A stretch of 64,000 bases of DNA, from the NCBI GenBank assembly GCA_003116975.1, contig BGKB01000096.1:62001-126000 (forward strand), given 5' to 3'. The first letter of the stretch is position 1; the number at the start of each line of letters is the position of its first letter. Source of the DNA: Aurantiochytrium sp. KH105. Taxonomy: Eukaryota; Sar; Bigyra; Thraustochytrida; Thraustochytriidae. Below, in pieces: positions 25,758 through 42,617 of the stretch. Position numbers and translations under genes: made by a program. Under the pieces are notes generated by a model. That model saw only the letters and a program-made list of their open reading frames with translations. It was not told where the DNA came from and made no database searches.

Positions 25758-27656
25758 TTAGCTCTTGGCTCGAACCCAGAACTCGAATCCCTTGTCGAAC
25801 TTGTTGCGATCCGAGCTGAAGTGCACAAGCATCTGCTGCGCCTGGGCTTCCAGAGTCTCTGTCGCTTTGACTTTGCCATCGAAAGTATCACGCAAAACGG
25901 TGTCGATCTGACCTTGCGCCAAAGCTTCGAATGTGGCTTCGGCTGTCGAAGTGACATCCCAAACCTCGAGAATATCTTTGTTGGCCTGCGTCTTCCCTCC
26001 TTTAATAATCTGAAAGCTGACGAGCTTGTCCGCGGGAGCCCGAATAATCCAACACAGATCGGCATCGTTCTCATACTTTTTGTCCTCGTTCGTCTCGAGC
26101 TTGATCCAGTATCCATGAGCGGAAAGTTCGATGACCACATTGTCCTTTGGGCTCTGGCACTTGTCGCTCCAGTCCAATTCGACTCGCGAACAGTCCTTTG
26201 CGTTTTTCACACACTGACGTGTGGCCTCGTCGAGTATGAGGTCATCGGGACAGCGACAGTATGTCTGAAGAAAAGCGCTTTCCTCCTCGTGCGTGTAGGA
26301 ATCTTGCGGACTGGGGAGAACAACGAAGGCACGTTCCGCGTCATCAGGGCACTTTTTATCAAGACCCGAGCCACTGCACTTCTTTTCGCAAGCAGGTTTA
26401 AAGCACTGTGTGAGAATCATATTGTTCGGACATGCAGGAAAGTCGCTTTCCGTGGCGACAATCTCTAGCTCGGTCGGAGCCGGCGTCGGTGACGTTGGAA
26501 AAGGAGTGGGAGACTTTGTAGGAAAGCTGGTTGGCCTTTGTGTAGGAGCCTTGGTCGGAGCCTTTGTTGGGGCCAACGTTCCGAAATCGACCCTGTTAGT
26601 ACAAGCGGAAGACTTGACCATTTGGACACACTTTGAAACCTTTTTCTTGTTCTCCTTGATGTCGATGGGCTTGTCGTAGTGAAGCTCGCATGTACCGCTG
26701 CTCTCCGAGTTTCCATAAAACTCGTAAGCTTTGCAGTAGGTCGACTCGAGGCACTTTCGGTAGCATTCTTCCTCGCTAATGCTTCGGATCACCGTAAAAT
26801 CGCCGTGATAAGCCCGATCCTGGACGTTGGTGGGATCAGCAAAGCGACAGTATCCATTACCAATAACGTTGGGGCATTTGAGATCTTTGTTGCGCTCAGG
26901 GACCTCGTACATGCAGAGCTGGTTCGTCTTGATATAGTCCGCTCGATTTTTGAGCGTTGCGTAGATATTTCCCGAACGTTTCATAATTAGTGCAGAACAC
27001 TTGTCAGGAGACGATGTATACTCACTGTTACCATAAGTACTTGTGTACTCGGTGTTGTATTCTTCGCTGGAGTACGAATACTCATGCTCATAGTTAGTAG
27101 CGTAATCAGACGTGTATCCACGTCGTCCTGAATAATAGGAATCGCCGTCATCGAATTCTGAATCATAACCCGTTTCGTACTTGTCGTTGTCGGTATAGGC
27201 CCAGTAGGTGGTCTGCACATCACACGAGCGCCAGCCAATGGACCTCCCTAACAAATCGTCAAGCTGATCAGCATCTTTCAGTACTTTGTGCGATGGTGCT
27301 CTAACATGACCGACCTTTCCGGCGGCATACCCACGGCTAGGCGTCCAACCGATGAACGCCCAGCTCAGGCCTGTGCCCTTGAGTACTTTCTCCATTGCTT
27401 GAGCTTGCGCTTTATTGGTGATGGTGGCGCGCTCCATGTTGCGCGCCTGCTTGTATGTCTGGCGGCAAAAATCTTGTCTTTTCTCAAATTGCTCGCGGAA
27501 GTTCCGGGCTTCGGTATCTTTCGCAAGACCCATGCACCATCCATCGTGAAAGTAGAAGCCTTCGACACATTTGTCGCTTGTTTTGCTTGCCGCTGCATTC
27601 GAAGTCAGCGTTGCAAGTGTCACAACAACAATTCCAACGAGTGCGAGGCGGGTCAT
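25758..27656 (-). CDS. Secreted CTLD-PAN-TIL-CUB protein, array member 1
   Basis: A 632-residue secreted protein. Signal peptide 1-23. A C-type-lectin-like domain covers about 30-252, starting CVEGFYFHDGWC, with ATITNKAQA and AFIGW as the WIGL-type core and LCMYE as the closing strand. A Tyr/Ser/Asp-rich insert lies at about 151-218. A PAN/apple domain follows at about 261-343 (EECYRKCLESTYCKAYEFYG). A linker of PT/SP/AP repeats spans about 361-396. A TIL-like module (about 409-489) has CPNN and YCRCP. A CUB-like domain (about 500-630) shows DLCWIIRAPADKLVSF and DILEVWD. The protein is probably extracellular and carbohydrate- or protein-binding. No membrane anchor is visible. Start ATG 27656 is fixed by the signal peptide. 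Confidence 0.85.
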   Translation of the reverse strand: MTRLALVGIVVVTLATLTSNAAASKTSDKCVEGFYFHDGWCMGLAKDTEARNFREQFEKRQDFCRQTYKQARNMERATITNKAQAQAMEKVLKGTGLSWAFIGWTPSRGYAAGKVGHVRAPSHKVLKDADQLDDLLGRSIGWRSCDVQTTYWAYTDNDKYETGYDSEFDDGDSYYSGRRGYTSDYATNYEHEYSYSSEEYNTEYTSTYGNSEYTSSPDKCSALIMKRSGNIYATLKNRADYIKTNQLCMYEVPERNKDLKCPNVIGNGYCRFADPTNVQDRAYHGDFTVIRSISEEECYRKCLESTYCKAYEFYGNSESSGTCELHYDKPIDIKENKKKVSKCVQMVKSSACTNRVDFGTLAPTKAPTKAPTQRPTSFPTKSPTPFPTSPTPAPTELEIVATESDFPACPNNMILTQCFKPACEKKCSGSGLDKKCPDDAERAFVVLPSPQDSYTHEEESAFLQTYCRCPDDLILDEATRQCVKNAKDCSRVELDWSDKCQSPKDNVVIELSAHGYWIKLETNEDKKYENDADLCWIIRAPADKLVSFQIIKGGKTQANKDILEVWDVTSTAEATFEALAQGQIDTVLRDTFDGKVKATETLEAQAQQMLVHFSSDRNKFDKGFEFWVRAKS

Positions 27657-28080
27657 GGTTTAGGCTCGGATTATTTAGGCTTTGAGGTTCTTTGTTTCGG
27701 TTTTGCTGACCAGGCGCGCATGCTCGTTTTTCTTTTCAGCTTGAGCTCGAGCTTCAGGTCCAGCTTTGTTCTTCTCGAGCTTGATCAACGCGACCTCCGC
27801 ACCGTCGGTGCAGACAGAACCTACCACATTTGGACTCTCGATACTGCTGGCTCCGAGCACCTCCGCGCCACCACAGCGCTCGTGCTTGCGCCGCCGGGTT
27901 GATGACCTGTCCAGTTGGTGAGATCCTAGATTTCGTATCAGAAATTCCGTTGCAGTGCAGAGAAGTTCAACTTCGAAGTTTCATCAGCTTCCTAGAATGC
28001 ATTAGCGCGGGCCCGATCTCTCACAGGCCTCAAGGGGTAGTAGAACTCCGCGCTGCAAGTCCGTGACGCAACTGGGGTCA

Positions 28081-28110
28081 CCTCACCTCACCTCACCTCA
28101 CCTCACCTCA
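28081..28110. repeat. Pentanucleotide repeat (CCTCA)x6
   Basis: Six perfect CCTCA units in the spacer between array members 1 and 2. Confidence 0.92.
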
Positions 28111-28203
28111 CCTTGAAACGAGGCGGAAGACTATGCTAAGATGCCTTGAGCGTCAGGCAAGGCAACGCCAGATTCTTGTTGCCGTCCCCACAGTTGAGTG
28201 CAA

Positions 28204-28224
28204 GATCACGCATGATTGATGCGC
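28204..28224. promoter_or_regulatory. Candidate shared palindromic element, copy A
   Basis: Reads GATCACGCATGATTGATGCGC on the plus strand apart from its last base. It is related to the idealised palindrome GATCAACGCATGCGTTGATC found in imperfect form in each array spacer. It lies about 550 bp upstream of member 1. A regulatory role is inferred. Confidence 0.25.
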
Positions 28225-28906
28225 TGGGCCACAGAACTTCCTTTCAAAGAGTTCGTTGGCCTCGTTCGTGAGCCGCTGCCGCTGCCGATGCCACTGCCAT
28301 GGGACACGCTTAGTCAAGCCAGGTAGACCAACAGCAACGGGAATGGCCGCGTGCATCCGGGACAATTTTTTTCATAAGCTAAGCGATCGAGCGGCGAACG
28401 GATCGATGATGAATGATGATAGTAGCAAGAGCGCTTCTTGCTGATGGAGCGTTACAGGAAGAAGGCACGGTCAAAACTCCTGTAGGCCGAAGTTTAGAAC
28501 TCCACCCTGCCTTCTGAAGCTTTTCTTGGATCTTGCTAATGAGAAAACCGATAAGTCGAAACGAAATAGGATTTGTTGAAGAAGTGGATTTCGAAGGACG
28601 CCAAGACGCTGTCACTCGCTGCGTCGGTAGCAGCGGCCTTGCTAGAGGCTTCGCTGTCCACGCTATTATAGAAAAAGGTACCATGAAGCGCCTCTACCTT
28701 GCTTCTTGTACCGCGCACAAACGCCGCGCGTGAAAAAAAACCATGTTTGATTGCTCTTGCCCGGTTGCTTCTGGAATGCACAAGAGCTCCTTAAAGAAAA
28801 GAAGCAAGGACACACACACACACATACAAGCAAACGTGTAGAATGATAACGTGAAAAAGGATAGATTGTTGTTTTATCGTTTATGCCCATCAATGAGCTT
28901 GGCTCA

Positions 28907-30739
28907 TTACGTAGCCCGCACCCAGAAGTCGAAGCCTTTGACAACCTTTCTGTGATCCGAGTAAAAGTGCACAACCATTTGCTCCGCCTCGGCATCCAAA
29001 GTCTGGGTCTTTTTGATTTTGCCATCGAATGTCTCACGTAGGATAGTATCAACTTGGCCTTGTGTCAACGCGTCGAATGTGGCTTCGGCAGGCGACGTGA
29101 CATCCCAAACCTCAAGAACATCTTTATTCGCCTGCGTCTTGCCTCCCTTTGTGATCTTGAAATTGACCCGCCTGCCCGCGGGAGCGCGAATGATCCAACA
29201 CAAGTCAGCGTTGTTGTCATACTTTTTGTCATCGTTTGTTTTGAGTACGACCCAGGGTCCAAAGGCGGGAAGTTCGACGATTACGTTGTCATTCTTGTTC
29301 TGACACTTGTCGCTCCAGTCTACAACAACCTGTGGACAATCCTTGGATCTTGTCAAACATTGGCGCGAGGCTTCGTCAAGAATGAACCCTTCGGGACAGC
29401 GACAATAGGTCTGCAGGAAGGCAGCTTCCTCCTCATACGTATAAGACTTTTGGGGTGCAGGAAGGACAATGAAGGCTCGCTCAGCGTTGTCAGGACACTT
29501 ATCGTTGAGGTTTGAGCCGCCGCACCTTTTTTCACAAGCAGGTTTGAAGCACTGCGTGAGAATCATGTTGTTCGGACAGGCTGGATAATCGCTCTCCGTG
29601 GCGACGATCAAGGCCTCCGTCGGGGCCGGCGTTGGCGGCGTGGGGTACGGCGTCGGGGCCTGTGTTGGTGAAGGCGTCGAAAAGGGCACTTTGTTGGTGC
29701 AGGCGGAAGACTTGACCATCTGAACGCACTTTGCGACCTTTTTGTTGGTCTTCTTCCAAGAAATGGGCTTGTCGTAGTGCAGTTCGCACGTGCCTTTGCT
29801 TACCTTGTTGCCATAGAACTCGTAGGCTTTGCAGTACATTGACTCAAGACACTTTTGGTAGCAATTTTCCTCGCTGATGTCGCGATAGATGGTCCAGTCA
29901 CCGCTGTAGTCTCGATTTCCGATATTCGTGGGCTTAGCAAAGCGGCAATATCCTTCACCGATGAGGTTTGGGCAGCTTAAAACCTCGTTGCGCTTGTGCA
30001 CCTCGTACATGCAGAGCTGCTGTGTCTTGATGTAGTTCAACCGGTTCCTGAGAGTTGCGATGATCTTTCCCGAGCGTTTCATAATCAGCGGCGCACATTT
30101 GTCGTAGCTCGACGTGTACTCGCTGTTCCCGTAGGTTGTCGTGTAATCAGAAAAGTATTCTTCATATTTTGTCGAGTAGTCGCCATCCGCGTAATACGCG
30201 TCGAAGTCAGTCGAGTAGTCGCCTCGCTTCGAAGAGTACGAGTCATCGTCAAATTCCGAATTGTAATTGCCGCTGCCGTGACCGTAACCGTATGTATCAC
30301 CAGTGCAGGAACGCCAGCCGATTGACCTCCCTAGCAAGTTGTCAAGTTGATCCGCATCTTTGGTGACCCAGAGAGAAGGCGCTTTCACCTTGTCCACCTT
30401 TCCGCTGCTGTACCCGTCGCGGGGTGTCCAGCCAATGAAAGCCCAGTCCTGACCCGTGCCCTTGAGTGCTTTTTCCATTGCTTTCGCTTGGGCTTCGTTG
30501 GTAATGACGGCACGATCAATTCTCGGGGCGTGCTTGAACGATCTCCAGCAGTAGTTGCGATTGGTCTCAAATTGGTCAATAAATGTTCGGTCCTCACCAT
30601 CATCAGCAAGACCAATGCACCATCCATCATGGAAGTAAAATCCTTGGACACACTCGTCGCTGGACTTGCTCGCCTCCGCGTCGAAGAACAGCGCCGCAAG
30701 TGTTGCAGTGGCAATGAAGGCGAGTGCAAGGCGGGACAT
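28907..30739 (-). CDS. Secreted CTLD-PAN-TIL-CUB protein, array member 2
   Basis: A 610-residue paralogue of member 1 with the same domain order. Signal peptide about 1-23, CTLD opening CVQGFYFHDGWC and closing LCMYE, a Tyr/Ser/Asp-rich loop, PAN domain (ENCYQKCLESMYCKAYEFYG), a shorter Pro-Thr linker, TIL-like module, and C-terminal CUB-like domain. It is closer to member 1 than to members 4 and 5: both share the CALIMKRSG-type strand and the CQ(S/N)-K-DNV CUB opening. It is predicted soluble and secreted. ATG 30739 starts the signal peptide. Confidence 0.85.
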   Translation of the reverse strand: MSRLALAFIATATLAALFFDAEASKSSDECVQGFYFHDGWCIGLADDGEDRTFIDQFETNRNYCWRSFKHAPRIDRAVITNEAQAKAMEKALKGTGQDWAFIGWTPRDGYSSGKVDKVKAPSLWVTKDADQLDNLLGRSIGWRSCTGDTYGYGHGSGNYNSEFDDDSYSSKRGDYSTDFDAYYADGDYSTKYEEYFSDYTTTYGNSEYTSSYDKCAPLIMKRSGKIIATLRNRLNYIKTQQLCMYEVHKRNEVLSCPNLIGEGYCRFAKPTNIGNRDYSGDWTIYRDISEENCYQKCLESMYCKAYEFYGNKVSKGTCELHYDKPISWKKTNKKVAKCVQMVKSSACTNKVPFSTPSPTQAPTPYPTPPTPAPTEALIVATESDYPACPNNMILTQCFKPACEKRCGGSNLNDKCPDNAERAFIVLPAPQKSYTYEEEAAFLQTYCRCPEGFILDEASRQCLTRSKDCPQVVVDWSDKCQNKNDNVIVELPAFGPWVVLKTNDDKKYDNNADLCWIIRAPAGRRVNFKITKGGKTQANKDVLEVWDVTSPAEATFDALTQGQVDTILRETFDGKIKKTQTLDAEAEQMVVHFYSDHRKVVKGFDFWVRAT

Positions 30740-32097
30740 GATTGCACCAGCTTGGGTACGATTCTGCTCCTACGTTTCAATTTTGCTCGCTTCCTTGCTT
30801 CTTTGCTTGCTTTCTTGAAATTTGACTTTTGCCGCCTTGTCTTTCGGTTATTGACTGACTTCGCCTGAGACGGGCTCTTTGCTCGACAACTCAATGATCA
30901 ACGCAACTTGATTCCGTGAGAAGCGGATTAATTTGTGAGCTAGAGTCCAAGGCGCCCGATCTTCTTCATCATCCATGCCTGCGCAGCGTTCGAGTACACG
31001 CAAGCTGGTTGACCTGAAGCCAGACTGGGCGCGTTTGCGCGCGGGTGTGGATTCTCTGGGAACAAAAAGGATTCCTGACAGCAACCGGCGCGGTCTCCGT
31101 TTGAGGCTAGTGCATTGCAAGTGAAGCACGGAACCAGCCCGGATCTGCTCAACCCGCCCGCCCGTTGCCGGCTGCAGGCTGACCAACCTTGTCCGCGTAT
31201 ATCTCGCTAGCAGCGCCCGCCGGTAAGGGCAAGCGGCAGGACGGACCCTCACGGACCCTCACCCCACCGCTACCGGCATTGCCCGCGAGGCTGAACCCTG
31301 AGCAGCGCGTCTCGATCTGTGGCGGCGAGCTTCGCGGCGACCCTGCTCCATTCATCTCATCTCATCTCGATCGCACGCCTTCCTTGCTTGCTTGTTTGCT
31401 AGCTTGCTTGGTGCCGTTCTACCCAGCTTCCCCACAGCTTCACGCGCTGGAGGATGTAAAGTCACGCATGATTGGCTTGACGGAGAGCTGGTCCGGTGAA
31501 GCGGCTCCATGCCCATCGGCTCGCTTCTTCCAGCGAGGGCCGGACCGGTCACTGGTGATCAGGCCAGTGAGACCAGCACGGACGCGCCAGAGCCGCCACC
31601 TCCGCGCCAGTGGCCGCGTACATGGGCCGTCATGCCAAGCCACGCTCAATCGGCCAGGCGGACGGAGGGACGGGCGCGCCGCGAGATGATGCGAGAGTGG
31701 TGGACGCAGCCGAGTACGGGTGGGGTAGTAAGAGCTGTTTGTACTCCGTCGAGGGGAGGAGAGGGGGGGGGGTTGTTGCTGTGGTGGAGGGAGGGGCTTG
31801 TCACGCGTCGCAAACCTGGAGTAATGTGGCAGGCTGCTCCTCACGGCCGCGTTGACGAGGTTCGCGGTCTGGGCGCCCGCGTTAGGACAAGCTCTTTCTC
31901 GGAGGAAGTCGACGACTCGGGTGCGCAGCCAGCATCGACCGTTGAGCATTGATGATGACAGAAAAAATCGTGAAACGTGTTGTTATTGGCCTTCTATTTC
32001 ATGCCCCTGGACTGACGGTATGGGTACAGGTAGGTGGATGACTTGTCGCGCGACCTGCCGGGATGCTGCGAAAGCCGGATAGCTTGCACGCGCTTCT
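30740..32097. other. Spacer between array members 2 and 3
   Basis: Holds a TGATCAACGC half-site at about 30895-30904 (some 155 bp upstream of member 2), a G-run near 31760, and an element copy at 31461-31481. I see no gene. Confidence 0.5.
31461..31481. promoter_or_regulatory. Candidate shared palindromic element, copy B
   Basis: Shares the 13-base core TCACGCATGATTG exactly with the copy at 28206-28218. It lies in the spacer upstream of member 2. The role is inferred. Confidence 0.22.
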
Positions 32098-33459
32098 TCA
32101 TGCTCGCGCGTCCTGGAGCTGCATCATAAATCCAGCGAAGAGCAGCGCCACGGCACTCACGGAAACTCCTCCGGCAGCTGCGCGAGTCGCAGAAGATGGC
32201 ACGAGGTCGTCCGAGTCAGTAATGTTTGTCTGCTCAGAATCGGGCGTGGGCTGAGACGTGGATTCGAGCTCGGGCGTCGGGGCAGACGTCCGCGCATCTT
32301 CGTCTGCTGAGATATCGCGCGTGGTCTCAGGCGTGGGCTCTGGCGTGGGCTTGGACGTAGGCGTGGCGGATGTAGGCTTGGGCGTGGGTGTGGGTGTGGG
32401 CTTTGGCGTAGAGTGCGAGACTTCGTCAGTGCAGGCACTCTCCTCTTTGAGGGCGACGCAGCGCGTGACCTTGTGATTAGAGGTTGTCTTTACATTGACG
32501 GGCACGTCAAAGTGCATTTCGCACATGCCCTTGTCAACGCTCTCGCCATAAAACTCGTAGGCCTTGCAGTACTTGAAGCTGCGGCACTTCTCGTAACATT
32601 CTTCCTCGCTAATGTCCTCACGGTTCGAACTGTCGCCCGAGTAGTCTTTCTTGCGTTGATCGGTAGGCTTAGCGAAGCGGCAAAAGCCGTTGCCCAGGAG
32701 ATGCGGGCACGACACGGAACTCTCTCGCTCGGGGACCTCATACATACAAACAGGGTAAGAACTGGTGTATTCGTCCGCCTGATGAAGACCTTGCGCCATG
32801 AGCGTGACTTTGAGAGATTGCGTCATGATGAGCTCCGAGTTTTCCGTGCACCCATATGAAGACCCATAAGACCCATAAGAGTCGCGATTCGAACTGTAAG
32901 TGGGAGTGTAGTAGTCGTTTTCCCCGGAATAGTGCCAATTACTGCGGCCGCTGATGCGAGCATACGTATCTACGGTGGCGTAATTGCCCTCGTCTTCAGT
33001 AAAGTAGTGATCTGAACCTGGTGAGCAGTCGATCTCAAATTTATTGACGCCGAGCATACTTTTGAGTTTCTTTGGCTTCCTTCTGATATCTGGATCAGCA
33101 GCCTCGAGCTTATCAACAGGCCCATCTTTGTAGTTCTCGAAGGGAGCCCACCCGATGAAGGCCCATTTCAGGTCTTCGCCTTTAAGGACCTTTTTCAGCG
33201 CCGTCACCTGGGCATTATTCGTAATTGTTGCGGCTTTGACCTGGCGACCATGCTTGAACTTTTCCTCGCAAAAGGTCTTATCCTGTCTGAACTGATTAGC
33301 ATAGCTCTTCTTCTTGTTGCGGTTGCCCAAGCCAAGGCACCATCCGTCGTGAAAGTAGAACCCTTCAACACAGCGCGAGCTGGTCGAGCTTGCCTCGATA
33401 TGAGCCGTGGTCAACAATACCATGCCCACAATCAGCAAGAGAATATGCGTCTGCATCAT
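32098..33459 (-). CDS. CTLD-PAN protein with predicted GPI-type tail, array member 3
   Basis: A 453-residue paralogue that stops after the PAN domain and a Pro/Thr/Glu-rich linker. It has no TIL or CUB part. Signal peptide about 1-23; CTLD opens CVEGFYFHDGWC; PAN has EECYEKCRSFKYCKAYEFYG. The last 25 residues (SSATRAAAGG then VSVSAVALLFAGFMM and a short tail) fit a GPI-attachment signal; a single transmembrane segment is the alternative. It would be the cell-surface-anchored member of an otherwise secreted family. The tyrosine-rich loop is present but shorter. Two ATGs (33459, 33456) open the gene. Confidence 0.82.
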   Translation of the reverse strand: MMQTHILLLIVGMVLLTTAHIEASSTSSRCVEGFYFHDGWCLGLGNRNKKKSYANQFRQDKTFCEEKFKHGRQVKAATITNNAQVTALKKVLKGEDLKWAFIGWAPFENYKDGPVDKLEAADPDIRRKPKKLKSMLGVNKFEIDCSPGSDHYFTEDEGNYATVDTYARISGRSNWHYSGENDYYTPTYSSNRDSYGSYGSSYGCTENSELIMTQSLKVTLMAQGLHQADEYTSSYPVCMYEVPERESSVSCPHLLGNGFCRFAKPTDQRKKDYSGDSSNREDISEEECYEKCRSFKYCKAYEFYGESVDKGMCEMHFDVPVNVKTTSNHKVTRCVALKEESACTDEVSHSTPKPTPTPTPKPTSATPTSKPTPEPTPETTRDISADEDARTSAPTPELESTSQPTPDSEQTNITDSDDLVPSSATRAAAGGVSVSAVALLFAGFMMQLQDARA

Positions 33460-33952
33460 AGACGATGGCTTCTTGCCTCGGCGTTGCGATCGGCTGCTTG
33501 TGTACCTGTCTCCTTGCCTGTCTCTGCCTGTCTGCTGGCGGATTTCTTATGTGCAAAGTTGTGGATTTGCTTGTGGCCTTTCACTCGTCGCATACAGCTG
33601 CAGGCCAGCACCGCACCGCGAATGTATTGTCATTGGCAGTGTGGCCGCTCGTCAACGCGGACCACACAATAGCCAGCCACGCATCCAGCCACTCATCCAG
33701 CACGACAACCCGTGAGCCACTAGCGTAGACCACAGTGACACTTTGGGGCAAGGCTTTTACTTCCGGGACGCGTGAGCCGCTCCGGCCGGACTGGCGGCTG
33801 CGTGAGACGGTGCAAGGGGTTGAGAGCTGCGTCCCGCCCCCGCGAATGAGGCTAATCATGGCGGCTTGAAGCGTTCGGGACGGCTGCAATCCACCACCAC
33901 TTCAAACTCTCAATCGCCTCTTTTCGCCTGCATCCTCTTCCGGGATCATGCC

Positions 33953-33972
33953 GCCTCGCCTCGCCTCGCCTC
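33953..33972. repeat. Pentanucleotide repeat (GCCTC)x4
   Basis: Four perfect GCCTC units, followed by one imperfect unit (GTCTC). Confidence 0.85.
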
Positions 33973-34279
33973 GTCTCCCACAGCTCCCGCCCGAGTTCTT
34001 GCGAATCCCACGCACGTCCCGCGGTCAACGCGGCGGGAGAAACAAGTACGTACTACGTACAGCCACGTACAGGCTGGGCTGATGTTGGCCACTGCCAGCG
34101 ACGGCGCAGAAGAGGCCTGGTCCAGCGGTAGCAGCAGCGAGCGGCGTTTCTTGCTGCAGCTGCGCACTGCACGCGTCCGCGGCCCGAGCTTTGCTGACGA
34201 TTGCGACTGCGCAAGAGTGTGAGATGAGCAAGTGCAGGCATGGGAGACGAGGCAGCGTTTCTCGGGTTGGAAGTAACCT

Positions 34280-34300
34280 GGTCAACGCATAGAGTTGATC
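34280..34300. promoter_or_regulatory. Candidate shared palindromic element, copy C
   Basis: GGTCAAC and GTTGATC half-sites in inverted orientation with a 7-base spacer. Its first 11 bases are identical to those of the copy at 42755-42774. It lies about 820 bp upstream of member 3. The role is inferred. Confidence 0.28.
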
Positions 34301-34663
34301 CAGAGTGACCGTGGATCGACTGCGTGTGGCTCTGGACGGGGAGTGAGCAGCCCGGGCGCAGCGAATAGTAGTAGGAGAAGCATGCGGGGGAGGGGGACAT
34401 CGAGATTGGCTGGCGTACGGGACGGCTACAAAGATTGCCTTCCGCGTTGGATGGTTGCAAGCAAAGTAGTGATGAGATTTGTCATGACGATTTCTACACA
34501 AAAGATAGGCGTGTTCAACCATAAGCGCTTGCGCTGCCTCTAGCACCAGCACCAGGACCAGCAAAATCGCGCCCGCTTCATGACGACGCAGACACTGTTA
34601 GCTATCTGCAAACGATTGTACAAGCCGCAAGTTGGTCCTACCTAACTAGACGTTTTCTCCCGC

Positions 34664-36268
34664 TCATTCAAAGCAACGACGCGGAGACTCAAACGGTGCT
34701 CCTTGCCGCCAAATGATCTCCTGGCGGCAGTGATCCCAGCCAAGATTCATACGACGCGCATAGGCCCAGCGACAGCGCCGACATTCGGAGTGCGTGCGGG
34801 TAAAGGCAAAAGTGCGCTCAAAGCGCTCAGAGAATGGCTTGAAGCGCCATGCATGGTACTCCATGTATGCAGTGCGATTCTTTGTGAGATAAAGAAGGTG
34901 TTCCCCGAGTTCCTCAAAGGAGGCAAAGTCAGCGGCGCTGACGACCGAATGCTCTGGTACATACAAGTTCACGTTGGGAGCGCCAAGGTAAACTGGCAGA
35001 GAGCCCGAGCTAAGCGCTCCCCAAACCTTTTCGGTAATGTAGTCATCCGAGTTTTCATTCTCCGCAGACAAGTGAAAGAGGTACTTGCGCATCATGCCTG
35101 ACTTGTCAGATCTTTTGATATCAGCGGGCCAGGGTGCATTGTTCAGACACGAGCTCACACTGTCGACCTGAATGTATTTTTGAAGCGTTCTGACGAGACC
35201 TTCGCGATTGTTGAGGCTCCGACAATTCCTTGCGGCAAAGGAAATACCCGGGATGACCTCCGTAAAATTAATAGGAGTAGTTTTGATGTCGTATTCAGCT
35301 TCGGAATAATAAGGCATTGGGATGTCGCTTAGATAGGAGGTCGTGGACAGACCATCATGAGTGCCTTTATCCCTCGATCGAGGGTAGTGTTTAGGTCCCT
35401 CCATTGTTGACATAAACGTGGTCCGAACATCCCGCTCATCATATACTGAAAAAGTGCCTACCAGGGGCCCGCCTCCTTTGATGATACACGGGACGTCACA
35501 TTTGGCCACTCTTCCAGTGCTGCTTTGCGCGGCTCTGAAGTATCGCTCTTGGGCGACGCGTTGTAATGAGTCGCTGTCTTCAATATCGATAAATTCTGGG
35601 GAAGTGGTATCTGCAGCCGTAGAATCATCGCCGTCATTTTGAACAGTAGCAGAACCAGCATTGACAGAAGCAGCAGCATCAATAGCAGAGACAGACTCTT
35701 TTGTAGGTGGCGATTGTTGGCTTTGCGCGTCGATATCGCTATTTTGATTGCGATGGGTAGAGATGTCCCGAGACTTGACAGGAGTGCTATCAGACTTTAC
35801 AGAGACCGCATCCTCTTGTCGAACGGGGTGAATATGCTGCGTATCATGCTCACTGATGTCGACAGATGCGCGAAGAGGAGTACCCCCTTCTATTGGTGAA
35901 AGCGTAACTTGTGCGCCGCGTGCGTCGCGCAAGTTTTCGTTTTCTGCTTGCAAATTGATCGCGCTCGCGCAGGCATGCATGACGTAGAGGACAACGCTGA
36001 GGCTTACGAGCACCATCCCGGCGCTCCTCCACTGCCCGCGCTGCAGCTTGGCCTTGACTGCGGCCCTGAACGCGCTCGTCCGTAGGCCCTTCCGCTGCAC
36101 GTCATCCTCCTCGCGGCCGAGGAGCGGCGCGTTTCCTCGCGTGCGCATCCTCCGCCGCCCGCGCGCTCGCGCGTGCGTGCTTGCTTGCGCCCGCCCGCGC
36201 GCGGCTGCTGCTCCGCCCGCGGCCCTGCCTCCCGGGCCCGCGTCTCCGTTTCGAGTCTGCTCGATCAT
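34664..36268 (-). CDS. Alpha-1,3-fucosyltransferase-like type II membrane protein (GT10)
   Basis: A 534-residue protein. It has a short basic cytoplasmic N-terminus, one membrane segment at about 83-104 and a Ser/Thr-rich stem, the layout of a Golgi type II glycosyltransferase. The GT10 signature lies at about 399-429: AENENSDDYITEKVWGALSS then PVYLGAPN, the GDP-fucose site. Conserved Cys residues follow near the end. GT10 enzymes add fucose to GlcNAc in N-glycans or other glycans. It is embedded on the same strand between members 3 and 4 of the secreted array, so it may modify these or similar surface glycoproteins (inference from position only). ATG 36268. The first 80 residues are low-complexity and the true start could be the ATG at residue 41. 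Confidence 0.85.
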   Translation of the reverse strand: MIEQTRNGDAGPGGRAAGGAAAARGRAQASTHARARGRRRMRTRGNAPLLGREEDDVQRKGLRTSAFRAAVKAKLQRGQWRSAGMVLVSLSVVLYVMHACASAINLQAENENLRDARGAQVTLSPIEGGTPLRASVDISEHDTQHIHPVRQEDAVSVKSDSTPVKSRDISTHRNQNSDIDAQSQQSPPTKESVSAIDAAASVNAGSATVQNDGDDSTAADTTSPEFIDIEDSDSLQRVAQERYFRAAQSSTGRVAKCDVPCIIKGGGPLVGTFSVYDERDVRTTFMSTMEGPKHYPRSRDKGTHDGLSTTSYLSDIPMPYYSEAEYDIKTTPINFTEVIPGISFAARNCRSLNNREGLVRTLQKYIQVDSVSSCLNNAPWPADIKRSDKSGMMRKYLFHLSAENENSDDYITEKVWGALSSGSLPVYLGAPNVNLYVPEHSVVSAADFASFEELGEHLLYLTKNRTAYMEYHAWRFKPFSERFERTFAFTRTHSECRRCRWAYARRMNLGWDHCRQEIIWRQGAPFESPRRCFE

Positions 36269-37318
36269 CGCGCGCCCGCGACACCTGTCCTGCGCAACGC
36301 ATTTTGCCGCGGCGGGCGGCCTATCTACCTCCTACTGAACTGCTAGTAGGTCTTGTCTTGTGAGCTGCAGCTGCGTTATCCATCCCAACCACGTTCATGG
36401 GGCGCGTCCTCCGCTGGCCATGCCTGCAGCCGGCTGGCTGGCTCGGAAAATCGGCCGGCCGAGCGAGGCTGCCTTCGCGCACAGCCCCGCGAGCCGCCGT
36501 CGCGTCCGAGGCTCCGAGGCTCGCGGCCGAGGCCGGCTCGACCCAATCATTCCCACCTCCTGGCTGCCCCTGACTGCTGCCGCCAATGTTCGTTTTGCTC
36601 GCGGTCTCTTCCAATTTCATCGCGCACCCTTGTTTTTACGACCGTAATGAGCGCAAAAAGGTGCACACTCCTCGATACAAGGGACCGGTCTTGTGGGAGC
36701 AAGGTAGGCTTCACGCTGGGTGCGGATGCTACAAGACGCGGATACGGCCTGGATGGGATGGGAGGTGCGATGTCATGAGAAGCGTGTGAGCATGCATGAG
36801 AAGGAGGAGCTGATTGGGATCGTTGATTCCCTGGATAGTGGGCGAGCGGGGGGTCAGTGGAGTGGAGGGCTTTCCGTTTGAGGTGGAGAGATAGATAGAT
36901 AGATAGATAGATAGAGAGAGAGAGTTCGCGCGCGCGCGAGAGGGAGACGAGGACGACTTTTGACCGTGTTCCTGAGAGGTACAAGACAATGACCCCGACT
37001 TGATTCAAGATGTCGGTCGACGGATGAGATGAGAATCTTTCGCTTCGAAGATAATTCTTAAAAAGATTCTCTTCTCCGGGCGATTGAGCCTGAACTTCGA
37101 TCGTGCTTCCTTCCCATGCATGTACACGTCTCTCAGAAAATTGAGCTTCCGATTTCTGAAAGATGCGACATCAACCTTTAAAAATCATCTGACAGTGTAA
37201 CAAGCGTGAGGATGCTGGCGAGCAAAAGACCCTTGCGTAGACGAAAAAATCGAATCGCTCTTACATCTTCAAGTTGAAGGGAATAGATGAAGACGCGAAA
37301 ATAATTGCAAGAAGTAGA
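36269..37318. other. Spacer between fucosyltransferase and array member 4
   Basis: A GC-rich leader of the fucosyltransferase (about 36269-36600), then a GATA/GA/CG microsatellite cluster, then AT-richer 3' flank of member 4. I see no gene. Confidence 0.5.
36890..36938. repeat. Compound microsatellite (GATA)n-(GA)n-(CG)n
   Basis: About six GATA units run into a GA tract and then an alternating CG tract. Confidence 0.85.
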
Positions 37319-39169
37319 CTAAACGTACATGGCCCAAAAGTCGAAGCCAGTCTGAACCTTTTTCTTGTCCGAGTAAAAGTGAACAACCATCTGCTGCGCC
37401 TCGGCGTCGAGCGTCGTCCGCCGCTTCACCTTGCCATCAAAGGTTTCGCGCAGCTCGGTGTCAACATCGCCACTGCTAAGCGCATCAAAGGTGGCCTCCG
37501 AAGGCGATAGAACATCCCATACCTCGAGCACATCCTTTTTGGCTTGAGACTTGCCGCCGCCTTCGACTTGCAGAATAACTTTCTTGCCCGCGGGGGCGCG
37601 AATGATCCAGCACAAGTCAGCGTTGTTCTCGTACTTTTTCGCCACATTCGTCTCGAGCTTGGTCCACGAGCCGATTGTCGTGAGGTCAACGACTACATTG
37701 TCGTCGTCTTCCTGACACTTGTCGGTCCACGCAGCAATGGCGGGCGGGCATTCCTTTCCTTTCTTGACACACTTGCGCGATGCCGTGTCCTTGATCAGGC
37801 CTTCGGGACAACGACAATAGGTCTCAATGAAAGTGGCTTCGGCATCGTAGCTGTACGAGGACTTTGGGTCCGGGAGATCGATGCAGACGCGGTCAGCCTT
37901 CTTAGAGCATTTGCCGTTGAGCTTGCGATCTCCGCACTTCTTCTCGCACTCGGGCTTGAAGCACTGTGCCAGGATCATGTTGTTCGGGCACGACGGATAT
38001 TCGTCAACGTTATCAGGAATGGTGGCGAGTGTGGGGCTCGGGGTTGGCTTCGTCGGCCGAGAAGTTGGAAAGGGTGTGGGGCTTCGAGTGGGCTCCGGCG
38101 TGGGCGCCGGCGTGGCAAAGGTTACCTCATCCGAGCAGTCCTGGTCGTCAACGAGAACAGCGCAGTGTGTGAGCTTATGACTCGAGGTCGTCTTGATGCG
38201 AACAGGCGTATCAAAGTGCATTTCGCACGTGCCCTTTTCTCTATTCTTGCCGTAAAACTCGTAGGCCTTGCAGTAGGCAAAACTGACGCACTTCTTGTAG
38301 CACTCTTCCTCACTAATGTTCTCGCGGTCCGAACTGTCGCCATCGTAATCTGTCTCACGAAGATCCGTGGGCTTGGCAAAGAGACAGTAGCCGTTGCCCA
38401 AGAGCTGCGGGCAGGTCTTGGATTCCTTTCTCTCGGGGACCTCATACATGCATACCGGAAAGGACTTGGCGTAGCGGTTCGTCGACCACGAATTTGTGGA
38501 GACAGTGACATCGCCCGACCGTGTCATGATGAGCTTAGACTTACTGTTGCATCCAGCAGAGTACTCATCAGAGTACTCATTATCATAGGCGTATGGATCT
38601 GACGTGTAGCTGTTGTACTTGCTACCCTTGGACGAATAGGATCCATAATTGTTGGAGTAGAACTCCTCCGCGTACTTGTCGCCCCCCGAGTAATCGGATT
38701 CAGAGTAATATTCTGTCCTTCCCGAGCAGCTGCTGACGTCAATGTCGACACCAAGCATGTTCTTGAGCGCCTTGGGCGTCTTCTTCATGTCAAGTCTGGG
38801 TGCCTCGAGCTTCTTGATCGAGCCGCCGCGATAGTCTTGGGGAGGCGCCCAGCCAAGAAAAGCCCAAGGGAGGTCCTCTCCATCAAGAATTTTTTGGAGC
38901 GCTTCGAGTTGGCCTTCGTTGGTAATAGTGGCCGGTTGAATGTCGCGACCATGGGCAAACCTCATCTGGCAAAAACTATGATCTTCATCAAGAAACTGGT
39001 GACGCCAGCGCTTCTTCTTGTCTCGGTTCCCAAGGCCAAGACACCATCCATCGTGAAAGTAAAAGCCTTCGACGCAGCGAGAGCTCGTGGAGCTGGCCTC
39101 AACACCAACGCAGATAGCCAGCAAAAGGCCTGCGACGAGTAAGCAAAGGCGATCCATTGCGAGCGACAT
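37319..39169 (-). CDS. Secreted CTLD-PAN-TIL-CUB protein, array member 4
   Basis: A 616-residue protein with the full domain order: signal peptide (about 1-26), CTLD with a Tyr/Ser/Gly-rich loop, PAN (EECYKKCVSFAYCKAYEFYG), Pro-Thr-Ser linker, TIL-like module (CPNNMILAQCFKPECEKKC) and CUB-like domain. The C-terminal half is nearly identical to member 5, while the lectin loop and linker differ clearly. This marks a recent duplication or local gene conversion. Start: ATG 39169; ATG 39157, matching the start of member 5, is equally plausible. It is predicted soluble and extracellular. Confidence 0.86.
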   Translation of the reverse strand: MSLAMDRLCLLVAGLLLAICVGVEASSTSSRCVEGFYFHDGWCLGLGNRDKKKRWRHQFLDEDHSFCQMRFAHGRDIQPATITNEGQLEALQKILDGEDLPWAFLGWAPPQDYRGGSIKKLEAPRLDMKKTPKALKNMLGVDIDVSSCSGRTEYYSESDYSGGDKYAEEFYSNNYGSYSSKGSKYNSYTSDPYAYDNEYSDEYSAGCNSKSKLIMTRSGDVTVSTNSWSTNRYAKSFPVCMYEVPERKESKTCPQLLGNGYCLFAKPTDLRETDYDGDSSDRENISEEECYKKCVSFAYCKAYEFYGKNREKGTCEMHFDTPVRIKTTSSHKLTHCAVLVDDQDCSDEVTFATPAPTPEPTRSPTPFPTSRPTKPTPSPTLATIPDNVDEYPSCPNNMILAQCFKPECEKKCGDRKLNGKCSKKADRVCIDLPDPKSSYSYDAEATFIETYCRCPEGLIKDTASRKCVKKGKECPPAIAAWTDKCQEDDDNVVVDLTTIGSWTKLETNVAKKYENNADLCWIIRAPAGKKVILQVEGGGKSQAKKDVLEVWDVLSPSEATFDALSSGDVDTELRETFDGKVKRRTTLDAEAQQMVVHFYSDKKKVQTGFDFWAMYV

Positions 39170-40817
39170 GGTTGCGTGTTCGAAGTAAGCTGAGCTGAGA
39201 GACTAGCTTGAGGATTTGCTTGGTGGTCAAGACGTTGGCTTGCTCTCTTTCCCGCGCGCTATTGGATCCTGATCAACGCATGCATGATCTGCGAGGTGTT
39301 AGTAAGGTCTGATTCAGGCGCGATTCATCATTTCTTGAAGTTGGGGAGGGGGAAGGTTCAGCAACATTTCCGCCTTGATCAGGAGGGCAAAACTTTGCTA
39401 CATCGCACCTCGAAGCAACCGATTTTGTGGAACTTGTCCCCAGCTTCAAAATGGATGGTGGTCTACAATGCATATCGCTGGTGAGCCTGGTGGCTCGTGC
39501 TGCCTTTCGCGGATCGACAGGAGCTGGCGAGGAGGAAGAGATCGACCACGAAGTAAGGGCTGCTGCCAAGCCATGGGGAACTTCCCTTCGGCAAAGGTTG
39601 GCGCTGGTGCTGGTGCTGCTGCTGGTGCTGCTTCGTCAAGATTGATTGGCGAGACGAGATCCGTGCCGGTCAAAAGGAGAAAGAAAGAAAGACCATCCGA
39701 GGGGTTGCTGGTAGCTTTTCTGGCTTTTTCGTGAAAGGCACTGTCACTGCCCGTGCCGAGTTTGTGAACGAAGCAGTGAGCAAACGCCTTGTGCATGTAT
39801 GTGCAAGGTCCGTGATTGGACTTCGGTCAATCTGGTAGCCCTGGAGGTGGCCCTGGAAGCGGCTCGCTGCGGCCTTGATCACTGCCATCAGTCTGCCATG
39901 CCCAGTGAAAAGAGTCGTAGAACAGCAAAAGAGGATGTTGTTGCGTTGATGATGGGCTAGATCCAGGCCCGCAGAGAGATGTTTACAAACGTGTATACGT
40001 GTACTCAATTCACCTGATTAGTGCAATAACCAAAGGGTTCCTTTCAGTCCAACTGAGTAATGTAAGATCGCCGGGCTCTGCTCTGCGCGTGCACTAGGTC
40101 CGAAGACTGACCTCCTCATGCATGCAGTGGGCCTGGAGCGGCATTGACAGAGTTGGTCAGCCATGCCCAATGGCTCTTTTGATCTTATGGCAGCCAAACT
40201 TGCAAACTTCCAAAAGTCGAGGCTTACTCCGGTCGCCTGCGCCACCAACGCGGCGCGTGCTCGGTAGGGAGAAATAAACGACAATGGGGACGCCAAAGCA
40301 TCTGCAGCTGCTGCCAACCACTGCCGCCAGGTCAGTCCGTAGACCAGGCTATGATCGGCCCATAAAGTACGCACGAACTTACGAACACGGATTTGGCTTG
40401 CGTCTGGCACGGAGAGGAGGCAGGGCGTCCAGATCCAGCGAGTGAGCGCGACCTGTCATACTTTCTCTATGAGTTGATTGGATTGGGGAGAGGGATTTTC
40501 TTGCACGTGATGGAAGCATGGTTAGAAGGCAAGTAGGATGTCCTATTTATGCCAACCCCCCGTGCCGGATGTTGGTTGGGCATAGGTAGAGCCTAGTGCG
40601 CACACGACGCAATGTGAATATCGAGGGACAAGAATGACGCCACGCCAATGGGCGAGATGACGGCAACCTCTCGCCCATAAGGAGCCTCATCTAGCCTTTC
40701 CGGCGACGCAGAGCTCTCTCACTCACCCGCCAGCCGCAACATCACATTTGTAGAAAGTTGCGCAGTGGGATGTTACTTTTTATTCCTTTTCAACATGAGG
40801 CAACTTGGCCAACTCGT
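39170..40817. other. Spacer between array members 4 and 5
   Basis: Holds the presumed promoter of member 4 with an element copy about 100 bp upstream of its ATG, and a GCTGGT-type repeat near 39600-39635. I see no gene. Confidence 0.5.
39271..39290. promoter_or_regulatory. Candidate shared palindromic element, copy D
   Basis: GATCAACGCATGCATGATCT, an imperfect palindrome about 100 bp upstream of the member 4 ATG. It differs from the copy upstream of member 5 at two of 20 positions. A transcription-factor site is inferred from the shared position and symmetry. Confidence 0.35.
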
Positions 40818-42617
40818 CTAGACAAACATGACCCAAAAGTCGAAGCCGTTCTTGGCCTTCCTCTTATCCGAGTAAAAGTGAACAACCATCTGCTGCGACT
40901 CGGCGTCGAGCGTCGTCCGCCGCTTCACCTTGCCATCAAAGGTTTCGCGAAGCCTCGTATCGATCTCGCCGCTAGTGAGCGCATCAAAGGTCGCCTTCGA
41001 AGGCGATAGAACATCCCATACCTCGAGCACGTCCTTGTTGGCTTGAGACTTGCCGCCGCCTTCGACTTGCAAAATGACCTTGTTGCCTTTGGGGGCGCGA
41101 ATGATCCAGCACAAGTCAGCGTCGTTCTCGTACTTTTTCGCCACATTCGTCTCGAGCTTGGTCCACGAGCCGATTGTCGTAAGGTCAACAACTACATTGT
41201 CGTCGTCTTCCTGACACTTGTCGGCCCACGCGGCAATGGCGGGTGGGCACTCTTTTCCTTTCTTGACGCATTTGCGCGATACCGCGTCCTTGATCAGGCC
41301 TTCGGGACAACGACAATAGGTCTCAATGAAAGTGGCTTCGGCGTCGTAGCTGTACGAGGACTTTGGGTCCGGGAGATCGATGCAGACGCGGTCAGCCTTC
41401 TTGGAGCATTTGCCGTTGAGCTTGCGATCTCCGCACTTCTTCTCGCACTCGGGCTTGAAGCACTGTGCCAGGATCATGTTGTTCGGACATGACGGATATT
41501 CGTCAACGTTATCAGGGATGATACCAGGCGTGGGACGAGGAGTCGGTCGCGTCGGCCGAGAAGTTGGAAAGGGCGTGGGCCCTGGCGTGGAGAATCTAAC
41601 TTCGTCTGAGCAGTCCTTGTCGTCGACGAGAGTCACGCAGCGCGTGACCTTATGATGAAAAGTCGGCTTGACGCAAGTAGGTGTGTCAAAGTGTAACTCG
41701 CACATGCCCTTTTCTCTGTTCTTGCCGTAAAACTCGTAGGCCTTGCAGTATCTGAATTGACGGCACTTCTTGTAGCAATCTTCCTCACTGATGTCCTTGC
41801 GGTTCGAGCTGTCGCCAGTGTAGTCCAACTCGCGAAGATCCGTGGGCTTGGAAAAGCGACAGTAGCCGTTGCCGAGGAAATGTGGGCACGTTTTGGATTC
41901 CTTTCGCTCGGGGACCTCATACATGCATACCGGAGATGACTTGTCGAAGTTGTCCGTCCACCACGAATTTGTGGAGACAGTGACGTCACCAGACCGTGTC
42001 ATGATGAGCTCAGACTTTCTGGTGCATCCTTCAGAGTAATGATCATAGTAGTGGTATGAATCGGTTGTGTAGCTGTTGTACTTGCTGCCCTTGGACGAAT
42101 AGGCTCCATAATAATCGGAGTAGTGCTCTATGTACTTGTCGCCCCCCGTGTAATCGGATTCAGAGTAATACTGCGTCCTTCCCGAGCAGCTACTGACGTC
42201 AATGTCGACACCAAGCATTTTTTTGAGCGCCTTGGGCGTCTTCTTCATGTTAAGCCTGGGTGCCTCGAGCTTCTTGATCGAGCCGCCGCGATAGTCCTGG
42301 GGAGGCGCCCAACCAAGAAAAGCCCAAGGAAGGTCCTCTCCATCAAGGACCTTTTGGAGCGCTTCGAGTTGGCCTTCGTTGGTAATGGTGGCCGGTTGAA
42401 CGTCGCGGCCATGCGCGAACCTTTTTTGGCAAAAGCTGTGGTCTTCAACGAGAAACTGATGGGCCCATCTCTTCTCCTTGTCACGGTTTGCAAGGCCGAG
42501 ACACCATCCATCGTGAAAGTAAAAGCCTTCAACACAACGGGAGCTCGTGGAGCTGGCTTCGACGCCAACGCAGATGGCAAGAAGAAGTCCAGCAATGAGC
42601 ACACAAAAGCGATCCAT
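40818..42617 (-). CDS. Secreted CTLD-PAN-TIL-CUB protein, array member 5
   Basis: A 599-residue protein, sister of member 4. The open frame continues 66 codons upstream, but ATG 42617 begins a clear signal peptide (MDRFCVLIAGLLLAICVGV), so it is the start. CTLD opens CVEGFYFHDGWC; the loop is Tyr/Ser-rich with YYDHYSEGC near its end. The PAN domain has EDCYKKCRQFRYCKAYEFYG. The Pro-Thr linker is shorter than in member 4. The TIL-like and CUB-like domains match member 4 almost residue for residue. It is predicted soluble and extracellular. Confidence 0.86.
   Translation of the reverse strand: MDRFCVLIAGLLLAICVGVEASSTSSRCVEGFYFHDGWCLGLANRDKEKRWAHQFLVEDHSFCQKRFAHGRDVQPATITNEGQLEALQKVLDGEDLPWAFLGWAPPQDYRGGSIKKLEAPRLNMKKTPKALKKMLGVDIDVSSCSGRTQYYSESDYTGGDKYIEHYSDYYGAYSSKGSKYNSYTTDSYHYYDHYSEGCTRKSELIMTRSGDVTVSTNSWWTDNFDKSSPVCMYEVPERKESKTCPHFLGNGYCRFSKPTDLRELDYTGDSSNRKDISEEDCYKKCRQFRYCKAYEFYGKNREKGMCELHFDTPTCVKPTFHHKVTRCVTLVDDKDCSDEVRFSTPGPTPFPTSRPTRPTPRPTPGIIPDNVDEYPSCPNNMILAQCFKPECEKKCGDRKLNGKCSKKADRVCIDLPDPKSSYSYDAEATFIETYCRCPEGLIKDAVSRKCVKKGKECPPAIAAWADKCQEDDDNVVVDLTTIGSWTKLETNVAKKYENDADLCWIIRAPKGNKVILQVEGGGKSQANKDVLEVWDVLSPSKATFDALTSGEIDTRLRETFDGKVKRRTTLDAESQQMVVHFYSDKRKAKNGFDFWVMFV

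Follow-up and report, generated by a model that had tools for sequence, protein, structure and literature searches.

Five paralogous genes, A to E, lie on the minus strand between positions 25758 and 42617 of a 64,000-nucleotide stretch of the Aurantiochytrium sp. KH105 genome (contig C96, positions 62001-126000 of a 76-Mb, 367-contig assembly; hereafter the window). We tentatively favour, at somewhat short of even confidence, the view that their products form a family restricted to this lineage, modular, secreted and rich in cysteine, which would serve as adhesive or matrix components outside the cell. All five are uninterrupted open reading frames (ORFs), and identity to member A ranges from 36 to 67% across B-E, which bears out the description of five same-strand paralogues in a first-pass annotation made from the sequence alone. 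That annotation also described a tandem array with one common domain order. The clustering holds, but the array is not strictly tandem, because a GT10 fucosyltransferase gene sits between C and D and breaks it. The full order, comprising a six-cysteine N-terminal domain (N-domain), a PAN domain, a proline/threonine-rich (Pro/Thr) linker, a TIL-like domain and a CUB domain, is found in four of the five members (A, B, D and E), C being without TIL and CUB; a tblastn search of the window with the family found no remnant of either beside C. Hydrophobic, signal-peptide-like starts are present in A-E and, together with the domain types, suggest that family members are secreted. By hydropathy all but one lack a membrane anchor, as first proposed: the best 15-residue C-terminal value is 2.2 in C, whereas the other four members lie between -0.13 and 0.04. 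The tail of C may thus be a glycosylphosphatidylinositol (GPI)-signal-like sequence or a short membrane tail.

The five genes recur with the fucosyltransferase on a second contig, C147, with their order kept, and the arrangement is therefore beyond chance. Positions 4677-64000 of the window are collinear with C147 at 89-95% DNA identity, the counterpart region being C147:46001-106000. Because of this collinearity, and because unrelated families (GT10, Lectin_C, PfaA and tyrosinase) are also paired in the assembly, we read the C147 copy as a second haplotype, or as the subgenome of a hybrid. A recent segmental duplication, which would make the copies non-allelic and the family one of ten loci, would fit two copies on separate contigs. 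We consider it very improbable, however, since the collinearity spans almost the whole 60 kb that was compared, unrelated genes included, and the pairing of those other families is that of a diploid or hybrid assembly.

A tree of the region shared by all members (signal region to the end of PAN) was built from both contigs' copies and rooted at its midpoint; the rooting is not independent. Every array gene groups with its own C147 counterpart; the duplications are therefore older than the haplotype split. The genes branch as ((A,B),(C,(D,E))), with values of 100/100 for A/B and 94/98 for the D+E fork and the other six inner branches starred, and the two sister pairs of the first-pass annotation are recovered. 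Given the midpoint root, the array appears to have grown by duplication in this order. The simplest account of member C is a loss of TIL and CUB, since the other four members have both. The D/E pair is in addition a patchwork: some blocks (e.g. codons 400-440) have as few as 1-2 third-position differences per 40 codons and others (codons 0-80 and 320-360) as many as 15-20, with the low-divergence blocks located around the end of the first half of the N-domain, in TIL and in CUB. The synonymous rate (dS) for D1/E1 is 0.175 in TIL, compared with 0.49 for the first half of the N-domain and 0.59 for PAN, and the corresponding D2/E2 values are 0.23, 0.55 and 0.75. D-E DNA similarity stops about at the coding limits. 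This pattern, which is not a formal test, looks like exchange of sequence between D and E by gene conversion.

The most distinctive feature of the family is an acidic, tyrosine-rich stretch of 53-74 residues between the fourth and fifth cysteines of the N-domain, which the first-pass annotation does not mention. Acidic residues, Ser, Gly and Thr are abundant in it alongside Tyr; each window copy has 10-15 Tyr (16-25%) and a net charge of -3 to -13. The tyrosine maximum is 14 in 56 residues within the array versus at most 6 in 56 elsewhere, as sampled every five codons in those parts of the window that run for 100 codons or more without a stop. Replacement differences between the haplotypes are also in excess in the stretch. 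With all five allele pairs combined (2,903 codons; four pairs for linker, TIL and CUB), the ratio of nonsynonymous to synonymous rates (dN/dS) is 0.20 overall and 0.57 in the Tyr-rich stretch, compared with 0.19 and 0.23 in the N-domain halves, 0.09 in PAN, 0.09 in TIL, 0.21 in CUB, 0.28 in the signal part and 0.02 in the Pro/Thr linker. For these ratios and for the tyrosine counts, the boundary of the stretch in C, D and E lies a few residues beyond the fifth cysteine. With fractional Nei-Gojobori changes rounded to integers, Fisher tests give p 4e-6 for the replacement excess relative to the rest and p 0.0013 relative to the rest of the N-domain, and the excess persists when any one gene is dropped (p <= 2.2e-4). 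Its synonymous rate is the same as that of the rest (odds 1.0, p 1.0). The equally low-complexity Pro/Thr linker shows no such excess (p 3e-6 for the difference), which means that disorder by itself does not explain it. Moreover, all seven gap columns between the haplotypes fall within the stretch. We do not claim positive selection on it: only the A1/A2 pair exceeds 1 among the five, on 13 changes.

The N-domain that carries this stretch has six conserved cysteines in the same order in A-E. The long-form C-type lectin-like domain (CTLD) has a six-cysteine framework, and the N-domain cysteines fit its C0-C0', C1, C2-C3 and C4 positions; by eye, 'WAF(I/L)GW' and 'CMYEV' are placed like WIGL and the C4 strand. 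The C-type-lectin-like label given to the domain in the first-pass annotation is not backed by profile matches. Lectin_C (PF00059) matched none of the five full-length proteins at E<=1 and none of the five N-terminal fragments at E<=10, and none of its eight places genome-wide is inside the array. The sugar motifs EPN, QPD and WND are absent from all ten sequences, the looser W-x-D occurring only in the N-domain of E, in both haplotypes. The Tyr-rich stretch that separates cysteines four and five is a further departure from CTLDs. When hhalign was used to compare the N-domain with six of the genome's eight undisputed CTLD places, the match lay in the expected register for the first helix region but did not reach significance (P 0.085), 6 of 100 shuffles scoring as well; the two halves taken separately came nearer to chance, where 18/200 and 74/200 shuffles were as good in local mode, and 18/200 and 58/200 in global mode. 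In a control alignment of PAN with 20 PAN loci of the same genome, by comparison, none of 100 column shuffles reached the score. A PDB profile search with the N-domain gave no match, and AlphaFold2, run on the five-sequence alignment, gave no usable model (mean pLDDT, the predicted local distance difference test, of 30 for the N-domain of E). Pfam, PDB profiles, hhalign and AlphaFold2 each failed to establish CTLD identity, and we leave the verdict at a fit of layout.

Within the assembly the N-domain has 10 places, all within the two arrays, the next among the best candidates scored having E=2. For relatives of the family beyond this genome, in two collections without eukaryotes, 30 pattern stretches in viral contigs and 38 in genome contigs were assessed and none was confirmed; a search of phages with member B gave no match. 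It seems unlikely that the N-domain is a CTLD-derived scaffold in which an acidic, Tyr-rich variable loop bounded by a disulphide has taken the place of the sugar-binding part, making the array a tandem set of secreted binders that diversify (or of adhesives with modified tyrosines), one member being membrane-held. If it were true that the domain is a CTLD with such a loop, it would represent an unusual elaboration of the fold.

The remaining domains are better matched to known families, and the broader proposal of secreted, modular, duplicated PAN/CUB proteins is supported, although individual calls hold in some members and are sub-threshold in others. PAN_1 (PF00024) is over the Pfam cut-off in two of the five (A, E 3.5e-05; and B); C (E 0.0092) and D (E 0.022) fall short of it, and E shows only PAN_4 (E 0.28). 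CUB (PF00431) exceeds its cut-off in B, D (E 0.00014) and E (E 3.4e-05), is below it in A (E 0.005), and matches all four TIL-CUB fragments (best E 3.1e-06). The TIL-like call stands as a resemblance: TIL (PF01826) matches all four fragments at E<=1, every one under the curated cut-off (best E 0.0075, 16.8 bits versus 24.5). A PDB profile search with TIL+CUB gave no match, and an NCBIfam scan none near cut-off. The full-length AlphaFold2 model of B is of low confidence (mean pLDDT 36; about 44-67 in the blocks covering CUB) but has 55 PDB matches at E<=0.001, for which the aligned range is not listed. Among the 50 matches listed, 46 are, we assume, CUB-containing entries and four CPE/claudin; the former presumably include Kremen, PCPE-1, neuropilin, spermadhesins and enteropeptidase. 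The C-terminal CUB is probably the part of the model behind these matches. A single PDB match obtained with A alone (E 0.81, around the linker) was disregarded.

Related parts occur elsewhere in the assembly. PAN clusters are found on C1/C26, C24, C112 and C92/C101, and Pro/Thr-rich linkers in 3 of 14 loci scanned (11 PAN and 3 CTLD loci), namely L032, L033 and L041. TIL-like stretches about 33% identical to those of the array lie at C134:163162-163425 (in a 365-aa ORF) and C128:189324-189590 (in a 314-aa ORF), with weaker matches roughly 3 kb further on; these are perhaps another small array.

The closest known systems by architecture and proposed role are two stramenopile proteins. CBEL of Phytophthora combines PAN with a Pro/Thr-rich hinge, and adhesion to cellulose is affected on its knockdown (PMC3532174). 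CBEL and other oomycete CBM1-PAN proteins resemble the array proteins in being secreted, modular, non-enzymatic stramenopile proteins with PAN/Apple domains, a Pro/Thr-rich hinge and a role in adhesion (PMC3532174). Unlike them, the array proteins lack CBM1 (0/5 in a Pfam scan at E<=1), have one PAN where CBEL has two, and add the six-cysteine N-domain with its Tyr-rich loop, the TIL-like domain and CUB. The best reading is that they would work like CBEL and are not members of its family. MIC4 is a PAN/Apple protein, and the second comparison is with a protein that resembles it. The Aurantiochytrium protein A0A6S8AHQ2 is described as secreted, microneme-MIC4-like and a proposed ectoplasmic-net adhesin (PMC12221091). 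Compared by description only, it shares with the array proteins a labyrinthulomycete origin, secretion and a proposed adhesive role, and the section of its description covered here includes no TIL/CUB or tandem array (PMC12221091). With CUB proteins such as spermadhesins, neuropilin and PCPE-1, the array proteins share the domain that is over cut-off in three members and the structures matched by the low-confidence model, and they differ in cysteine number and in neighbouring domains. PAN, CUB and the Pro/Thr linker are therefore known parts, whereas their combination and the N-domain with its Tyr-rich variable loop are apparently new: neither was found in the profile libraries or literature searched, which included no eukaryotic sequence collection. 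The accessible portion of one further paper makes no mention of lectin or adhesion (PMC6050695).

By analogy with CBEL and the MIC4-like ectoplasmic-net candidate, a surface-recognition or adhesion role for the family, as first suggested, is reasonable. Under such a mechanism, PAN and CUB would attach to glycans or proteins at the cell surface or in the matrix, the two halves of the protein would be kept apart by the Pro/Thr linker, and the Tyr-rich loop would form an outward contact that tolerates or favours change. Member C would stay attached to the membrane through its tail, of GPI type or a short membrane segment, and A, B, D and E would be released; the family would most probably act at the ectoplasmic net or on the surface of settled cells. 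Ectoplasmic-net and attachment proteins are listed in PMC12221091 as candidates only and are largely untested. The array would add five further candidates for thraustochytrid surface attachment or the ectoplasmic net, with a split between released and membrane-held forms and a defined variable loop.

Several observations weigh against this interpretation. The dN/dS of the stretch is uneven among genes (A 1.96, B 0.38, C 0.70, D 0.30, E 0.37), and higher values than in the stretch occur elsewhere, in the post-loop part of C (0.98) and the CUB of E (0.45). With the pooled ratio below 1, relaxed constraint would account for the loop excess as well as selection, and relaxed constraint and weak diversification are indistinguishable with two haplotypes. 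Tyrosines inside the stretch are kept between alleles more often than other residues (120/129 vs 442/514, p 0.037; p 0.0035 for paralogue pairs), but they are better kept outside it too (odds 2.5 vs 2.7, p 0.048), so their retention in the stretch is not special. The CUB regions of A, B, D and E have two cysteines each in place of the usual four. TIL domains have ten cysteines, and the TIL-like domains have ten in D and E and nine, an odd number, in A and B. Finally, PAN has at least 97 places in the assembly, and its presence alone says little.

Among the alternatives, the one to which we give most weight, while still regarding it as rather unlikely, is that these are variable recognition proteins, with the Tyr-rich loop a diversifying binding surface in mating, self/non-self or prey recognition and gene conversion between D and E shuffling its variants. 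The concentration of haplotype replacement differences and of every gap column in the loop, the D/E patchwork and the tandem array are all consistent with this. On the other hand, the pooled loop ratio is not above 1, one of the five allele pairs alone exceeds it, in a comparison of two haplotypes only, and no partner gene was identified. The low-divergence D/E blocks moreover homogenise rather than diversify the regions in which they fall. Tyrosine-based glue, in which tyrosines oxidised to dihydroxyphenylalanine (DOPA) or di-tyrosine, or sulphated, would serve adhesion or cross-linking and PAN/CUB would target the matrix, is an improbable explanation. The tyrosine content would suit it, as would the 45 of 66 tyrosines with an acidic residue within two positions, and the assembly contains six tyrosinase-domain places (apparently three genes in two haplotypes). 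Tyrosinases are common, however, and none is linked to the locus, so that they permit glue but do not support it; high tyrosine also occurs in unmodified low-complexity sequence. About as doubtful, and if anything slightly more so, is a role in secreted defence or nutrient capture, by soluble pattern recognition or by a TIL-like domain that inhibits proteases. In animals, proteins of PAN, CUB and CTLD type work in innate recognition, which we count in its favour along with the TIL-like match in four of four fragments. Against this, the TIL matches are all under cut-off, one of the ten cysteines is missing in A and B, and C has no TIL.

Coordinates of the array genes, the intervening gene and the Tyr-rich stretches within the window
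Feature	Position	Strand	Description
Member A	25758..27656	-	ORF, 632 aa; N-domain, PAN, Pro/Thr linker, TIL-like, CUB; predicted secreted
Member B	28907..30739	-	ORF, 610 aa; domain order as in A; predicted secreted
Member C	32098..33459	-	ORF, 453 aa; N-domain, PAN, Pro/Thr linker, hydrophobic C-terminal tail
GT10 fucosyltransferase gene	34664..36268	-	Glyco_transf_10 E 3.9e-34
Member D	37319..39169	-	ORF, 616 aa; CUB, weak PAN_1; predicted secreted
Member E	40818..42617	-	ORF, 599 aa counted from ATG opening signal peptide
Tyr-rich stretch of A	27000..27221	-	Residues 146-219, flanked by Cys145 and Cys220; 15 Tyr/74, charge -13
Tyr-rich stretch of B	30098..30304	-	Residues 146-214; 14 Tyr/69, charge -11
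Tyr-rich stretch of C	32851..33024	-	Residues 146-203; 10 Tyr/61 by slightly longer boundary
Tyr-rich stretch of D	38552..38725	-	Residues 149-206; 13 Tyr/61 by slightly longer boundary
Tyr-rich stretch of E	42027..42185	-	Residues 145-197; 14 Tyr/56 by slightly longer boundary

Two gene models have alternative starts. Member D may begin with an internal ATG, at 39157, corresponding to the Met where its C147 copy was cut. For member E the longest ORF reaches 42815, and the C147 allele aligns from the same Met as the 599-aa form. GT10 genes occupy eight places in the assembly, in four apparent pairs, of which the array copy is one; by eye this copy has an N-terminal hydrophobic segment, and its position is kept in both haplotypes. 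Nine other ORFs in the window were scanned, and the seven with a Pfam match at E<=0.01 all belong to unrelated families: a WASH subunit, PX, an ATP-synthase-like nucleotide-binding protein, 2-oxoacid dehydrogenase E2, BTB-pentapeptide, PhyH and GNAT. An Rfam scan of the window gave no match at gathering scores. Six short rows of tandem repeats were detected, two in the Pro/Thr linker of C and four intergenic; a TCACC repeat of 7.2 perfect copies lies between A and B at 28078-28113.

Elsewhere in the assembly, a match to PfaA-type polyunsaturated fatty acid (PUFA) synthase was found on contigs C72 and C155 (930 bits, below the curated cut-off); the same family search also matches 11 of 14 control genomes, none over cut-off, so that the match agrees with a thraustochytrid origin without proving it. 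PfaA-type PUFA synthases have an ACP-repeat layout. The PfaA-like gene is split, with C72 and C155 ending shortly after the match, C61 beginning within it (base 32) and a further part on C290, probably through an assembly break in the ACP repeats.

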